From Candidatus Bathyarchaeia archaeon (lineage in GTDB: Archaea; Thermoproteota; Bathyarchaeia; Bathyarchaeales; Bathyarchaeaceae), in contig DATETJ010000009.1 in assembly GCA_035283685.1 (NCBI GenBank), positions 520,925-584,924 on the forward strand: a DNA stretch of 64,000 nt. Direction: 5' to 3'. The notes beneath the pieces were generated by a model. That model was not told where the DNA came from and ran no database searches. It worked only from the letters and a program-made list of their open reading frames with translations. Numbering within the stretch: position 1 is the first letter of the stretch; each line of letters opens with the position of its first letter. A program made the translations under genes and the position numbers. Shown here piece after piece: positions 57,077-64,000 of this stretch.

Positions 57077-57118
57077 TCTTTATAGACGTTTCCAGTAGTA
57101 TCACTAGAGGAACCAGTC

Positions 57119-57367
57119 TTGAGTCTACGTTGCGGCGGAGGCAAAGAAAAAGAAGAAGAGTTGAAGAAACAAGGCTGGACTAGGCAATTCGTCACCGATG
57201 AGCCGCGTCTCAGCGAAGCCGTTGAACTATATCAAGAAATAGGCTACGAGGTTCATCTCGAAGACGCAACCATGGACGAAATCAATCAAATATGCGCAAA
57301 CTGTCTTCCAGCCGACTGCAACAAGTATAAAATAATCTATATTCGGAAAGTCGGAAATAAACGCTGA
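57119..57367 (+). CDS. conserved hypothetical protein (82 aa)
   Basis: TTG 57119 gives 82 residues. The N-terminus is acidic and helical (GKEKEEELKKQGWTRQFVT), and the end carries CANCLPADCNKYKIIYIRKV, three Cys in a tight cluster. EAVELYQEIGYEVHLED looks like the strand-helix of an alpha-beta protein. The same layout is seen in small archaeal and clostridial hypothetical proteins. It starts 42 bases after the double-Lrp gene and may be co-transcribed. Confidence 0.65.
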   Translation: MSLRCGGGKEKEEELKKQGWTRQFVTDEPRLSEAVELYQEIGYEVHLEDATMDEINQICANCLPADCNKYKIIYIRKVGNKR

Positions 57368-57412
57368 AGAGATGGGGAACCTTGAAAACGAGTCTCCAGG
57401 CGCTTTCGCGTT

Positions 57413-57424
57413 TTACTACGAGGA
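57413..57424 (+). repeat. 12-mer TTACTACGAGGA, copy 1 of 4 in the right-hand region
   Basis: TTACTACGAGGA lies here, at 57524-57535 (minus strand), 57812-57823 and 58931-58942. Copies 1 and 2 are inverted relative to each other, 99 bases apart. A fifth exact match at 49449-49460 lies inside bcrB, where it encodes YYED. In two other copies the frame around it also encodes YYED in short, unsupported frames. Confidence 0.7.
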
Positions 57425-57584
57425 TTCCCAGGGACCCCTCCTGCAACTGCATTTTCTGACGCGCCAATATCAGCAGGCCGCTGCAGAACGAGGAAGAATT
57501 TTGGTCCTCTTCAGAGAGAGTGTTCCTCGTAGTAAACAACTCAGCCGGCGCTGGATCCAGCCGCGTCGACGTCTCCTGTTTTGA

Positions 57585-57874
57585 CCATCCTGTTGTGTAG
57601 GTGTACCTGCGACCCTATATAATCACAGCATTGGGCTGATGTTGAAAACGCCATCATCGGCAGCTCGAAGGCGCCCAAAACCACGGCTATTTTCATGAGG
57701 ACACCAAAATCGGCGCTGAAAAGAATGTTCCCCACGATGATTACGAAGAACCGAAACAACGTCACTAGAAAGAGAATTCATGAACCGAGGGCAGGGGAAC
57801 GGAGAACCGAATTACTACGAGGACCTAACGTGGCGTCTGCCCCTGTTGAAGACTGAGAAAAGAGAGAATTCGAG
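57585..57874. other. stretch with one 12-mer repeat and no sure gene
   Basis: A 32-codon frame (57780-57878) containing NYYEDLTWRLPLL is possible but has no ribosome-binding site. A reverse frame over 57541-57765 has poor composition. TTACTACGAGGA copy 3 is at 57812-57823. Confidence 0.4.
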
Positions 57875-58114
57875 CTAAATACGTGAAACAAGCGTATTCT
57901 GAAGCAGAATGTAGATTCTGACAACACGCTGTCCTTTTTCTGTCGTTAGGTATCTATTCGCTTCTTTCAATAGTAGACCTTGAGAGAGAAGCCACTCCTC
58001 ATAGGTCTGAAACTGAAAGAAAGACAGACCAACCTCATACCTCACTTGCGTCTTCAGTCGAGGCTCTGAACAGAACGTCAGAATTCCGATGCTGATTTCG
58101 AGTTTTCCCCTCAT
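57875..58114 (-). CDS. winged-helix protein (Sso10a/DUF4364-like)
   Basis: ATG 58114 gives 79 residues: RGKLEISIGILTFCSEPRLK begins the winged helix, FFQFQTYEEWLLSQGLL is the recognition region and YLTTEKGQRVVRIY the wing. This is the small winged-helix type found all over archaea and their viruses as chromatin or regulatory proteins. It stands at the left of the mobile-element-like region. Confidence 0.75.
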   Translation of the reverse strand: MRGKLEISIGILTFCSEPRLKTQVRYEVGLSFFQFQTYEEWLLSQGLLLKEANRYLTTEKGQRVVRIYILLQNTLVSRI

Positions 58115-59099
58115 TTTCAGAGCCTCTCGTAGGGCTGTCGTTTTCTCGTTGGCTGTGTCGAGCCACGCACAGCACGACTCCGTTTCTGCGCATGGCGTTC
58201 ATGGTGAAAATCCATCAATGCGCAAAGTCGCTTTTGCGGTTGAGTTTTTTCACCATGCCACAAGCCCCAGAAATTAGAAAATATATGAAGATATGTGTTA
58301 AATGAAATTAACAAATAATAGGACAAATTACGGTAATTTGTTTAGGTATCTGATGGGACTGAGAGATCCTAGATTTCCCATGGGACTCAGTGAATTCACC
58401 TGACTTCCCTCAGTCTACTCCCCTAGAGGACTGACTCTAAGCTAAGCTAAGGCAAGAACAAAGGCGAAACGCTGAGGGAGAAAAGCCTTAGATAAGCGTC
58501 TTCTATTTCCGGCTTTCGTCATCATTGAGCAGCTTCAAAAGCGCACAAAAGGCCTCTTAAAAGCTTAAGAGAGCCTCTTTCTCCTTTTGCACTCAGTTTT
58601 TTCTGAAAATGGCTTTCTGGGGCTTGAAAGGATTGTGAAGGCTAATAGACGCTTAGAAAGGGTCTTTGCGCTCCTTTTCGTTCCTATTGTGTTTTTGCTT
58701 TCGCCGACTTAAAATCGCCTAAGCCTGCCTTTCAGAAGCCTTCAAAGGGTTCTTTATCTGAGGCAATAAGGCTCCTTTCTTAAGCGCATTCAGTTGCTTT
58801 TTTCTAGGCTTTCTGTCTCTATGCTTGCAGGATAGTGAGGCTGTTGATAAGGGCCAAAGGCGCGGCTTTGGCGAGTCTCCTGGAGCTTTTTCGCTGAGGC
58901 TTCTGAGGACTTGCTTTCGGAGCATGACCATTACTACGAGGATACCCCGGTCTCTGTGAACTCAAGGCGCCTGTGGGGATCAGCAGCTCGAGGACGGGCC
59001 CCCCTCGACTTTTCCGGGCGAGTCTTCCAGGGCTTTCTGCGAATTCCGACTCATAACAAGGCTTTTAAACACTCCATCTCACAGAGTTTTTTGATTAGA
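58115..59099. other. gene-poor stretch with degenerate repeats
   Basis: No supported gene. A block at 58592-58648 recurs degenerately at 58789-58850: shared order TCAGTT, TTTTTTCT, GGCTTTCTG, CTTG, AGGAT, GTGA, GGCT. GGGACTGAG and GGGACTCAG lie 23 bases apart near 58353-58386, with a self-complementary CTCAGTC after. AT-rich DNA with ATATATGAAG lies at 58270-58330. Such a stretch in an element could hold its origin or a regulatory RNA. The last 12-mer copy is at 58931. Confidence 0.4.
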
Positions 59100-59837
59100 A
59101 TGACTGAAGATAAGAAAGAAGAGAAGAAAGGCATAGACATAGCAGACTGGGTTAAACTTATTGGTTACGTAGCGGCGATTTTGGTGGCTAGCACAAGTTT
59201 GCTCAGTGCTAGTGGAAGTATTCCATCATTGTGGTTTGATTTTTCATTTACTTTCTTAATAGGGCTTATCTTGTCTGTGCCAGTTATGATTTTTGCTAAA
59301 CCTATATCTAAGAAGATTAAAGGAGTAAGATTCGAGAGAAAAAGAGACGCAATTGCACAGAAGCATTTCCTAGAGTTCGAGAATCTAGTTGAAACTGCCA
59401 GAAGATTCAACAGTCCAATAAGGGACACGTTAAATAATCTGAAAAATCATTATGCCAATGAAGTTAAGAGTTCACTGGCTCGTTTTACATTGGAAAGTTA
59501 CCCCGACTCAGAAATCACAAGTGCCTTCTCTATTATTCAGAAGGAACTTAAAGAATCAAGAAAGACCTTACGGGACCTTTCGCTTATAATGAGGCAATTT
59601 GAACTGGTTCTGGAAACGTATAAGAAGTATCTGAAAATCACGGAAGAGTTTGTCCATGAGATGATGAGCCTCACAGGAAAGCCAATAGCCAAAGGTTTTG
59701 AAACGGAGTTTGAGAGTTTCAGAGAGAAATACAACTACTTTGTCAAAGACTTCAAACAATACTGTCAGAAAGTAAATCAAGAAATTGGAGAAATAGAGTT
59801 ACCAGAATGGGCTGTTGACCACATCAAGAAGTGGTAG
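59100..59837 (+). CDS. two-helix membrane protein with long coiled coil
   Basis: ATG 59100 (MTEDKKEEKKG) gives 245 residues; the frame runs upstream to 58911 but that part reads as repeat DNA. Two hydrophobic helices lie at about 18-40 (KLIGYVAAILVASTSLL) and 46-68 (LWFDFSFTFLIGLILSVPV). A long helical cytoplasmic part follows, with coiled-coil character (LEFENLVETARRFN, ELKESRKTLRDLSLIMRQFE). No family recognised. It is the first of four genes joined by overlaps and 1-base gaps. Confidence 0.65.
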   Translation: MTEDKKEEKKGIDIADWVKLIGYVAAILVASTSLLSASGSIPSLWFDFSFTFLIGLILSVPVMIFAKPISKKIKGVRFERKRDAIAQKHFLEFENLVETARRFNSPIRDTLNNLKNHYANEVKSSLARFTLESYPDSEITSAFSIIQKELKESRKTLRDLSLIMRQFELVLETYKKYLKITEEFVHEMMSLTGKPIAKGFETEFESFREKYNYFVKDFKQYCQKVNQEIGEIELPEWAVDHIKKW

Positions 59838-60403
59838 TGAACCTCTTGAATGGTGAGTTGACTCTTGCTTTCTTTACACTTGTCGGCGTATTGATTGGAT
59901 ACCTATTAAACCATTTCTTGACGCTAAGAGAAAAAAGCGTGATTAGAGAATTTGAGGTAAGGAAAGAAGGCAAAGAGTTCTATCTTCCACTTTACGGATT
60001 CATTGCACAACTTGCAGATTTAGTGATTGGTTACGTGACTGCACAGAAAAAGGGGAAGGCTCAACTAATCGTTAAAGAAGGCTACAATTATCTTGATTCG
60101 AATGAGGTGCTTAAGCGATACAATCAAGCCTATGAGGATTTTACGAAATTCTTGGGCAAGTCGAGAACCAGTGGTTTTGAATTGTTTATTCCATTAGAAT
60201 TGTCAAGTTTGATGGAAGACATTTTAGGCTATTCCACTCTTTTCTATGAACAGCACACATGGGATTTTAAGACAGCAGAACACTTCGCCAAGAAAACAGA
60301 CTATGCTATGAAGAGAATGGAAGAACTTCTAGGTCTGAAAAGGACCTCGCTGAAAGAAACGTTATTAAAAGTCGGGAAATTGTTACTACATTGGGGATAT
60401 TAA
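59837..60403 (+). CDS. membrane-anchored helical protein (about 188 aa)
   Basis: GTG 59837 overlaps the last base of the previous stop. An N-terminal transmembrane helix (LAFFTLVGVLIGYLLNHFL, about 9-27) is followed by a long helical domain (IREFEVRKEGKEFYLPLYGF; LVIGYVTAQKKGKAQLI) without known motifs. The layout suggests a signal-anchored protein facing the cytoplasm that could pair with the coiled-coil protein encoded just before. Confidence 0.65.
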   Translation: MNLLNGELTLAFFTLVGVLIGYLLNHFLTLREKSVIREFEVRKEGKEFYLPLYGFIAQLADLVIGYVTAQKKGKAQLIVKEGYNYLDSNEVLKRYNQAYEDFTKFLGKSRTSGFELFIPLELSSLMEDILGYSTLFYEQHTWDFKTAEHFAKKTDYAMKRMEELLGLKRTSLKETLLKVGKLLLHWGY

Positions 60404-60404
60404 C

Positions 60405-60605
60405 TTGCCAGAAAGTAAGGATGAAGAAGAAGGAAGAATCGAGCGAGAGAAACGTAGAGCACTTCGCTCAGAGGAAATTGAACTCAAGAAAGCCCGTATT
60501 CGTTCAGAAGCAACACTTAACCTAAAAGAGGCAAAAATCAGGTCACAAGAAGCCGAGAAAAGAAAGACAGAAGCACAGAGGGAAAGTGAGAAAGAATCGA
60601 AGTGA
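60405..60605 (+). CDS. small charged coiled-coil protein (66 aa)
   Basis: TTG 60405 begins one base after the previous stop. Nearly all residues are Glu, Lys, Arg, Ala and Ser (REKRRALRSEEIELKKARI), so it should form a single helix. Its stop overlaps the next start (AGTGAAC). Confidence 0.55.
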   Translation: MPESKDEEEGRIEREKRRALRSEEIELKKARIRSEATLNLKEAKIRSQEAEKRKTEAQRESEKESK

Positions 60606-60793
60606 ACAGAATGCCAGAAGAGCAGATAGAAAAGAAAGAAGTGAAGTTGCAACGCATTCGTTCAAAAGAAGTAGAATCTCAAAAACTGCTTCTAAAGTCG
60701 TCTGAAGTTGGCATAGACACTGCACTAAAGTCTTCTAAGGTTGAAGAGTCAAAGTCGAAAGCCAAAGAAGAATCAAATAGAAGAGAGGGTTAG
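60602..60793 (+). CDS. small charged coiled-coil protein (63 aa)
   Basis: Starts at GTG 60602, or ATG 60611 (MPEEQIEKKEVKL), overlapping the previous gene by 4 bases. Composition again helical and charged (EEQIEKKEVKLQRIRSKEVE) and related to its neighbour (RSEEIELKKARIRSEA vs RSKEVESQKLLLKSSE), so the two probably arose by duplication. It ends the four-gene run. Confidence 0.55.
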   Translation: MNRMPEEQIEKKEVKLQRIRSKEVESQKLLLKSSEVGIDTALKSSKVEESKSKAKEESNRREG

Positions 60794-60856
60794 CGGCTCT
60801 CTACAGAGCAACCCTATTTTTCTGTTTTCCTGCAGCCGGGTCCCTTGGAATCCTTT

Positions 60857-61652: not shown

Positions 61653-61877
61653 TTAAATAACATAGTTTTTCATTTTCTCCATGATTTTTTCGGGTTTCTC
61701 AGTCGAAAAGGGCGCTTGATCCAGTAGCGCGAGAATTTCGTCAACGTCTTGCCGGAGCCGCTGAAACGCCGAGCAGATCTTGATCAAGTCTTTTTGCGGC
61801 AACCGTTCCCAAGATGCCTGGATCAAGAGGAAACGGTTCAGCTGCTCGGCCAGGTCCCTTTTCGTCACTTTACTCAT
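61653..61877 (-). CDS. hypothetical helical protein (74 aa)
   Basis: ATG 61877 (MSKVTKRDLAEQLNRFLLIQ) overlaps the TGA of the primase-helicase gene (ATGA), so the two are translationally coupled. The product is helical (DLIKICSAFQRLRQDVDEIL) and about 74 residues long. No family recognised; position suggests a replication accessory protein of the element. Confidence 0.6.
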   Translation of the reverse strand: MSKVTKRDLAEQLNRFLLIQASWERLPQKDLIKICSAFQRLRQDVDEILALLDQAPFSTEKPEKIMEKMKNYVI

Positions 61878-64000
61878 TTGGCTTCTCGCTCCACAAATTC
61901 TCGAACTAGATCTTGAACTCGACCTCCACAATCCACACAGACAGCGTCATACCGTGAGCCATCTAGTAGTTGGATTTGCCAAACTAAGTTCGCGTCTGAT
62001 GTCTGACAAAGGGGACATTTGCCCCTTTCAACTGGGTTAAGGGGCCGAACACTCAGAACTTGGTTCACACCTTTCTGAAACTCTGATTGCAGCCAAGCGA
62101 AGAATTTGATCTTGGTGCGTTTCTCACCCATAGAAGAAGAGGTCAAAATAGCGTCCGAAGCGTCCCTACCGTCCCTACCGTCCCGATCAGGTGGGGCGCT
62201 TGGGACGCTTGGGACACTTGTTATACTTATTCTTCTAGAGCCACCACTCTTGCTAGCTTCAATCTCCCAGCCTAAGGACTTAAGCGATGGTGCCAGCTCA
62301 TTCAACTGCCTAACTAGAACGTGAGGAGCCTTGGGCCAAGAATGTTGCCTCGTGCTAATGTTGAGCAATTTGGCGTGACCCAAAAGATTCGTGAAGAGAT
62401 CTGTTGGTGACCCTTCCCAATCCGCTTCCCAATTCCTCTTTTCAAGCCAATCGAGCAAAACCGTTGCCACCGGGCTGGCATGCGCCGCTTCTTCGACTTG
62501 GCTCTTGACTTTCTCCTCATAGGCTTCCAAGAATTCTTTCTCATCCTTACCTAGGGCTTTGGCTATGGCACACCCCCACCGAGTGAAATCAGCCATGCGG
62601 AATAATCCATCAGGATTGATCGTTGGGTATGCCTGAAACGCTCTCACAAGAACATCTAGAAATCCGCCAAGAATGCTAGCGCGCTCCTTTTCAAAGTCCG
62701 CCAGTAGTCTTGCTTCGGTTTTCCTTTTCTCTTTCGGAATATTCTGAAGACTAACCAAGACGGTGCGATCCAACAGATCCCCACGTTGAGCCGCTATGTT
62801 GATCCCGTTCAGACCGACACAACGCTTAAAATTGTAAATCACGTCGTCGTCATCCGAATATAGTTCACGCTTCGTGAACCCTCCACCTGTGGCTGCGCGG
62901 CACAAGCTATCGCTGATCCAGGTTGGTATGCTCGTTATGTTATCGTAGAAGGCAAGCCAGTGGTGATCGAGTTGTTGAACCCGTTCACGTTCGTCTCGAG
63001 GCATAATCAAGACTTCAATGCTGCTTGGGTCGAACACGGATCTGATGATCCTGAACACCAGAGTTTTCCCAGAGCCTTGAATGCCATAAAAGACCAAGAT
63101 TGGATGAGGAATTAATGGAATCCAGTAAGTCACGCATGTGCACATTAGAACCAGACGAGTACCCTCATCTTTTTCGTCGATGTTAAGATAGCTCAAAAGC
63201 TTCCATGCGTCCCCGCTTCGTTCCGGCTCAGGTAATGGGAGCTGATGACTGTAACGTCTGAATAGTATTGGGGGATTGTCTACAATTGTCCAGCCGGTTG
63301 CAGTTACCTTTATGGCACGCCACGCTGAGTCACCCATGTCAATCCAAACGCCGTCTTCCGCGGGGGCGACTCTGTTATAAAGTGTGTATTGCTCTCCTTG
63401 AAGGAGCGCCTTGCCCTGCAGAACGTTGATGGCGCTGCTCAATCCTTCTGTTCCAGGGACTTTCTGGTCCGTCTGCCACATGAGATTTGCAAACCAGGAT
63501 TTGAACTGTCGACTGCGTATGGGCATGAGCACATTGACGCCTGCTTGTCTGACTCTAATGTAAGGTGTTTTGTGTTGGTCATGAAAAAAGACTGGCTGCT
63601 GCACTTCGCAAAGAGTTACGAGGCGATCTGCTTGGCTGCCTTCTTTTGGTTCTTTCTTGTTTTTGGGGCACTCAGGGAGACAATAACCCCAACTCTTGAT
63701 AGAAGCGCATGAAGCGGTTTTGTCAGGATCAGCACTTCGCACCTGCACCAGACACTTATCCCTGTCGAAATCATCTTGATGTCTAAAGAGGTCGACAATT
63801 TCTTCGTCTGAATAGCCTGCCCTTTTATGCTCCGAAGCAATGCACAGCCTCATGGCGTGCGCAATGTGACGGTCCCTTTCCAAAGCCGCTTCACAACATA
63901 TGCGCGCCTGGGCTTTCCTACGCCTTTTCCTAGGTGCTACGGTTTTTGTGACCTCTCGTGATTTCCCAACACCGATGTGGTACAACCCGTCGTAAAATGT
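61874..64000 (-). CDS. primase-helicase of a mobile element (5' end beyond the window)
   Basis: About 708 residues are visible, and the frame continues off the right edge, so a TTG at 63985 is probably not the real start. Near the visible N-terminus is a Cys-containing segment like the archaeal/eukaryotic primase large-subunit C-terminal (PriL-CTD) type (YSDEEIVDLFRHQDDFDRDK, then CASIKSWGYCLPECP). The middle holds an AAA+/SF3-like ATPase: Walker A FYGIQGSGKTLVF (about 315), Walker B region HHWLAFYDNI (about 365). The end has a zinc finger (CPLCQTSDANLVW ... CVDCGG). Replication protein of an integrated plasmid or virus. Confidence 0.8.
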   Translation of the reverse strand, partial: TFYDGLYHIGVGKSREVTKTVAPRKRRRKAQARICCEAALERDRHIAHAMRLCIASEHKRAGYSDEEIVDLFRHQDDFDRDKCLVQVRSADPDKTASCASIKSWGYCLPECPKNKKEPKEGSQADRLVTLCEVQQPVFFHDQHKTPYIRVRQAGVNVLMPIRSRQFKSWFANLMWQTDQKVPGTEGLSSAINVLQGKALLQGEQYTLYNRVAPAEDGVWIDMGDSAWRAIKVTATGWTIVDNPPILFRRYSHQLPLPEPERSGDAWKLLSYLNIDEKDEGTRLVLMCTCVTYWIPLIPHPILVFYGIQGSGKTLVFRIIRSVFDPSSIEVLIMPRDERERVQQLDHHWLAFYDNITSIPTWISDSLCRAATGGGFTKRELYSDDDDVIYNFKRCVGLNGINIAAQRGDLLDRTVLVSLQNIPKEKRKTEARLLADFEKERASILGGFLDVLVRAFQAYPTINPDGLFRMADFTRWGCAIAKALGKDEKEFLEAYEEKVKSQVEEAAHASPVATVLLDWLEKRNWEADWEGSPTDLFTNLLGHAKLLNISTRQHSWPKAPHVLVRQLNELAPSLKSLGWEIEASKSGGSRRISITSVPSVPSAPPDRDGRDGRDASDAILTSSSMGEKRTKIKFFAWLQSEFQKGVNQVLSVRPLNPVERGKCPLCQTSDANLVWQIQLLDGSRYDAVCVDCGGRVQDLVREFVEREAK

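Follow-up and report, generated by a model that had tools for sequence, protein, structure and literature searches.

A four-gene cluster at the end of an integrated element in a Bathyarchaeia archaeon: two probably independent membrane modules

Four genes packed together in the genome of a Candidatus Bathyarchaeia archaeon are read here, with a probability somewhat above even, as a head-to-tail pair of accessory modules that move horizontally and independently of each other, located at the end of an integrated element. Module A would be gene 1 alone, encoding a two-helix hairpin anchor with a helical body, and module B would consist of gene 2, encoding a single-anchor membrane protein, plus one or two short charged peptides whose translation follows directly. 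The anatomy of these genes, the separate distributions of genes 1 and 2, the recurrence of gene 2 with a peptide, and purifying selection were each observed. The stretch of DNA analyzed (64,000 nucleotides, G000:C9:520925-584924), hereafter the window, comes from a genome of 2.28 Mb that is 98% complete, and its relevant features are as follows:

59063 to 59069, + strand: TATA-like TTTTAAA, candidate archaeal promoter (by eye)
59100 to 59837, + strand: gene 1 (245 aa), two N-terminal membrane helices followed by a helical, possibly cytoplasmic, domain (open reading frame, codon usage, AlphaFold2, hydrophobicity)
59846 to 60403, + strand: gene 2 (185 aa from TTG), one N-terminal membrane helix (conserved start; a longer frame begins at GTG 59831)
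60405 to 60605, + strand: gene 3 (66 aa), Lys/Glu/Arg-rich, helical-looking peptide (open reading frame, codon usage, position behind gene 2)
60611 to 60793, + strand: gene 4 (60 aa from ATG 60611), second charged peptide (GTG 60602 is a possible alternative start)
60796 to 60828, + strand: GCTCT-ctac-AGAGC hairpin followed by a T-rich stretch (by eye; absent from the site list of the scanner)
61874 to 64000, - strand: C-terminal part of an 874-aa element replication protein, whose gene runs past the window edge (L002:7874-10498; profile scans)

The four frames lie tightly packed on the + strand between 59100 and 60793 (59100-59837, 59831-60403, 60405-60605, and 60602-60793). They are real, coding-like genes, showing codon-usage scores of 0.106-0.126 against 0.04-0.23 for real genes when the score was trained on the other long genes of the window, while their antisense frames gave negative scores. 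A preliminary description made from the sequence had joined them by overlaps or 1-base gaps. The packing was confirmed, but the relatives of gene 2 begin with "LNGDL..." in the alignment, which places its conserved start at TTG 59846 instead of GTG 59831; genes 1 and 2 are therefore separated by 8 nt and do not overlap. Similarly, the overlap between genes 3 and 4 may vanish, since there is none if gene 4 starts at ATG 60611. The G+C content of the patch is approximately 0.38, compared with an average of 0.474 for the open reading frames and approximately 0.49 for the primase gene, so that the cluster looks to have been acquired separately. It is the most AT-rich patch nearby, and gene 2 has the highest AT content among 68 open reading frames in 74 kb. 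The TTTTAAA motif sits approximately 31-37 nt 5' of the gene 1 ATG and is a candidate promoter for a near-leaderless transcript, and the hairpin with its T-rich stretch is a possible transcript end. A terminator scan of the window gave hits near chance (4 vs 1.8), and a sigma-70 promoter scan was set aside as irrelevant to an archaeon.

Gene 1 has hydrophobic segments at residues 12-30 and 48-66, and AlphaFold2 gave a helix pair (14-37 and 43-101) followed by further helices with a mean pLDDT of 75.6, in agreement with the two-helix membrane protein described earlier. The description of gene 2 as a single-anchor helical protein also holds. It has one hydrophobic segment (residues 7-25), and its model (mean pLDDT 78.8) consists of a helix at 2-69, in which the membrane helix runs on into a long helix, a beta hairpin at 72-83, and further helices.

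The cluster was thought to sit in an element tail, and it does lie at one end of an integrated element, beside a replication gene. On its right side are a DUF6788 gene and the gene of the 874-aa replication protein, which seems to be one chain made of a primase-like N-terminus, a PriL-like segment, and a helicase-like C-terminus. Beyond the window, at the window-equivalent position 70960-72318, is a 452-aa protein without a Pfam or NCBIfam match, which we read by eye as a putative tyrosine recombinase (HNIR...GHG...NQYDR). An integrated element about 13 kb long, with the four-gene cluster at its left end, would account for this arrangement. A search for attachment (att) or flanking repeats bounding the element found none. 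On the left, between an Lrp/AsnC-type regulator and gene 1, convincing genes are scarce over approximately 2 kb (window positions 57100-59050). This stretch contains a 20-nt direct repeat (57413-57432 and 58931-58950, 90% alike) and is possibly a remnant of earlier insertions.

Relatives of gene 1 were found in four of the 257 Bathyarchaeia genomes, with identities of 59, 58, 51, and 43% over the full length; a smaller, nearer sample of 60 genomes detected two of the four. They are located in G007, G136, G056 (contig C2), and G160, and gene 2 adjoins none of them. Their neighbors are a downstream gene for a 257-aa coiled-coil-like protein in G007, a gene that we take from its sequence to encode leucyl-tRNA synthetase in G136, and a presumed prolyl-tRNA synthetase gene (also read from sequence) and a nucleotidyltransferase gene in G160; the relative in G056 lies within a mixed island. 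The DNA similarity ends at the gene 1 boundaries in three pairs (window/G007, window/G056, and G007/G056), and extends approximately 28 bp further downstream between G007 and G136. The dN/dS ratio is well below 1 where dS could be estimated (e.g., 0.28/1.81), showing that the gene 1 family is under purifying selection. No relative of gene 1 was present in plasmid records.

Full-length relatives of gene 2 were obtained from G152, G056 (contig C36), G050, and G109 among the same 257 genomes, and again gene 1 is adjacent in none of them. The copy in G152 has a late frameshift, and further relatives are a broken one in G018, interrupted by a stop, and two divergent ones in G108. Identity between the window's gene 2 and its closest relatives is low, at 28-33%. 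No relative was detected outside the class in 398 genomes of the phylum, nor in phage records, and the viral contigs searched contained no relative of gene 1 or gene 2. Integrases occur near relatives of gene 1 or gene 2 on both G056 contigs (C36 and C2), in G109, and in G108. The two divergent relatives in G108 are followed by genes for 77-78-aa proteins (L030:3775-4008 and L031:9569-9799), which carry a C-x-x-C...C-x-H pattern like that of a SWIM zinc finger and gave no Pfam match.

Genes 1 and 2 are thus never neighbors outside the window in the 257 genomes of the class, and for this reason the four genes could not be confirmed as the single unit that had been proposed. The preliminary description had named separate occurrence elsewhere as evidence against such a unit, and this is what was found for gene 1, which occurs in four other genomes without an adjacent gene 2. 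The opposite was found for gene 2 and small charged peptides, which stay together in four other genomes. Only genome G056 has relatives of both gene 1 and gene 2, and they are on different contigs (C2 and C36). One four-component membrane complex, with gene 1 as the core, gene 2 as its partner, the peptides as soluble helical adaptors, and all of them on a single transcript, would account for the common strand, the gaps of 8 nt or less, the shared low G+C content, and the TATA-like sequence before and the hairpin with a T-run after the cluster. We nevertheless regard this as improbable: the two genes adjoin in no relative found, and they do not look co-evolved because gene 1 is 43-59% identical to its relatives and gene 2 only 28-33%.

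The association of gene 2 with a peptide is of a different kind. Short charged peptide genes, overlapping gene 2 or directly after it, were observed at all four other loci with close members, and encode 50 aa in G109, 48 and 67 aa in tandem in G152, 81 aa in G056, and 57 aa in G050. These five peptides share a pattern like (I/V)RKG(I/L)V..S.V...K. A profile built from them recovered its own members at E-values of about 1e-21 to 1e-23 in the 257 genomes, followed by a next best match at E = 0.004; every one of the five strong matches is directly behind gene 2, and the family is absent elsewhere in the class. Between G056 and G050, the DNA similarity covers only gene 2, the peptide, and approximately 60 bp upstream, which indicates that gene 2 and the peptide form a conserved pair. 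Gene 1 is under purifying selection, as are gene 2 and its peptide between G056 and G050 (dN/dS about 0.22 and 0.31). Such selection, together with the intact frames in the window, argues against the idea that these genes are decaying or selfish, have no function for host or element, and are merely carried along by integration at insertion hotspots. The frameshift (G152) and the stop (G018) in gene-2 relatives and the patchy distribution would suit that idea, which we consider rather unlikely.

No support was obtained for common descent of genes 3 and 4 with the conserved peptides: 417 and 218 of 1000 shuffled sequences, respectively, reached their scores against the profile. Their link to module B therefore rests on their position, which is the same as that of the conserved peptides, and they may be diverged or replaced peptides. 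They had been called two related Lys/Glu-rich peptides. Both are indeed charged peptide frames, but their mutual similarity is marginal, as 14 of 1000 shuffles reach the alignment score.

The statement that genes 1 and 2 have no known domain was borne out by searches of Pfam, PADLOC, PHROGs, NCBIfam, and PDB folds, in which neither the two genes nor their relatives matched a credible family. Foldseek gave no PDB match for gene 1 at E ≤ 0.001, and nothing at this threshold for gene 2 in either PDB or BFVD, where the best viral fold was a 184-aa siphovirus protein (E = 0.013, TM 0.53). PADLOC did not match the gene 1 of the window or any of the three gene-2 members scanned. SLATT and PycTM proteins are two-TM effectors of nucleotide-signaling defense with an N-terminal two-helix membrane hairpin and a helical body. 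Gene 1 resembles them in this layout, and one of the three gene-1 members scanned gave a sub-threshold PADLOC match to PycTM (E = 0.0076). It differs in that none of the five gene-1 members matched such families in Pfam, and no cyclase, second-messenger synthase, or sensor gene was recognized among the neighbors examined. The LemA family (PF04011) similarly combines an N-terminal membrane helix with a long helical bundle and gave a weak match to gene 1 (E = 0.048). However, the score of 13.9 bits is below the curated cut-off of 26.2 bits, and gene 1 has two membrane helices instead of one; a LemA structure was also matched weakly by Foldseek (E = 0.6, TM 0.16).

A role in defense, exclusion, or partition had been suggested from the element-tail position, and was not shown by the neighboring genes. 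In G056, a CAP12/Pycsar-type TIR gene (PF10137, PADLOC PDC-S35; L026:9912-10415, - strand) precedes gene 2 by 61 bp, at the contig end and near an integrase; in G050, an AAA ATPase gene adjoins the gene-2 relative. These neighbors hint at defense islands, although neither recurs. A TIR-gene 2 link as a rule was rejected, as it was seen at one locus only and the DNA similarity ends before the TIR gene. The same two neighbors would also agree with a toxin-antitoxin-like or abortive-infection pair, in which the peptide restrains a harmful membrane protein and the element or host is protected from viruses. Further points in its favor are the small gene overlapping or adjacent to gene 2 at each of the four loci, the sporadic distribution, and the mobile surroundings. 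We judge this pair unlikely, though not negligibly so: neighbors vary between the loci, the similarity stops short of the TIR gene, and PADLOC recognized neither the gene 1 of the window nor the scanned gene-2 members. Like small two-gene toxin-antitoxin modules, module B couples a short charged peptide gene to a larger gene on mobile DNA; unlike them, gene 2 is a membrane protein without a toxin domain, and the number of peptides varies. Because no family or fold matched and the TIR and AAA neighbors are not recurrent, we retain the reading of mobile accessory modules acting at the membrane. In module B, the peptide would bind the soluble helical domain of gene 2 at the membrane, and both modules might be cargo useful to the element. 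The benefit would most likely be that rival viruses or elements are impeded at the membrane; defense or exclusion there is our guess.

When the flanks of gene-1 and gene-2 relatives were compared, a block of approximately 40 bp, AATGCGGAAAAGTTATAGCNGAACCAAAAGAACTAATTAGAAT, was noticed. It occurs directly after gene 1 in G007, directly before gene 2 in G056 (contig C36) and G050, and twice around gene 1 in G056 (contig C2); it is absent from the window. The following copies were located:

L009:3189-3231, + strand: ~40-bp site
L026:9870-9912, - strand: ~40-bp site
L027:9804-9846, + strand: ~40-bp site
L010:17945-17987, - strand: ~40-bp site
L011:607-649, - strand: ~40-bp site
G000:C4:6572, C12:285, C12:54345, and C9:1202: ~40-bp site copies in the window's own genome

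A 26-base core of the site gave 17 matches in five of nine genomes, and a 35-base version was found in at least 14 of 251 class genomes, with no match for the reversed pattern in either case. Across 36 distinct copies, most inside positions carry approximately 1.2-2.0 bits and those outside mostly 0-0.4, so the edges are sharp. Its sequence is that of the final codons (GKVIAEPKELIRI) of a zinc-ribbon gene, which persists as a long gene at a few loci; the variation among copies of the site falls largely at third codon positions, as judged by eye. Pairs of sites 340-820 bp apart were observed in L074, L081, L083, L088, and L091, and the site lies between unrelated cargo genes, some of them short, beside relatives of both modules in some genomes. 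It often precedes genes, as a promoter would, but a promoter alone was discarded as an explanation: conservation runs over the entire ~40 bp and ends sharply, and the sequence agrees with the 3' end of the zinc-ribbon gene. An attachment site at this 3' end appears to be the simplest reading.

Integron gene cassettes are known in archaea (Ghaly et al. 2022, PMC9668308). In a similar way, gene 1 might be one cassette and gene 2 with its peptide another, moved in Bathyarchaeia by an integron-like shuffling of genes at a zinc-ribbon-derived ~40-bp site unrelated to the integron site; the pair in the window would then have been joined with no such site in between. The module relatives do stand beside a repeated directional site and unrelated short cargo genes, as integron cassettes do. 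What sets it apart from integrons is that the site falls on the 3' end of a zinc-ribbon gene and, by eye, shows no attC core boxes; it is also missing from the window, and we consider such shuffling an unlikely explanation of the pair.

Tight packing by itself is no proof of a joint machine, as the distribution of the relatives separates genes 1 and 2. With this cluster, the accessory gene pool of uncultured Bathyarchaeia gains two protein families that have no database entry. The recurring pair of a membrane protein and a tiny charged peptide is directly testable. The ~40-bp site beside the relatives could indicate how such cargo moves in archaea.
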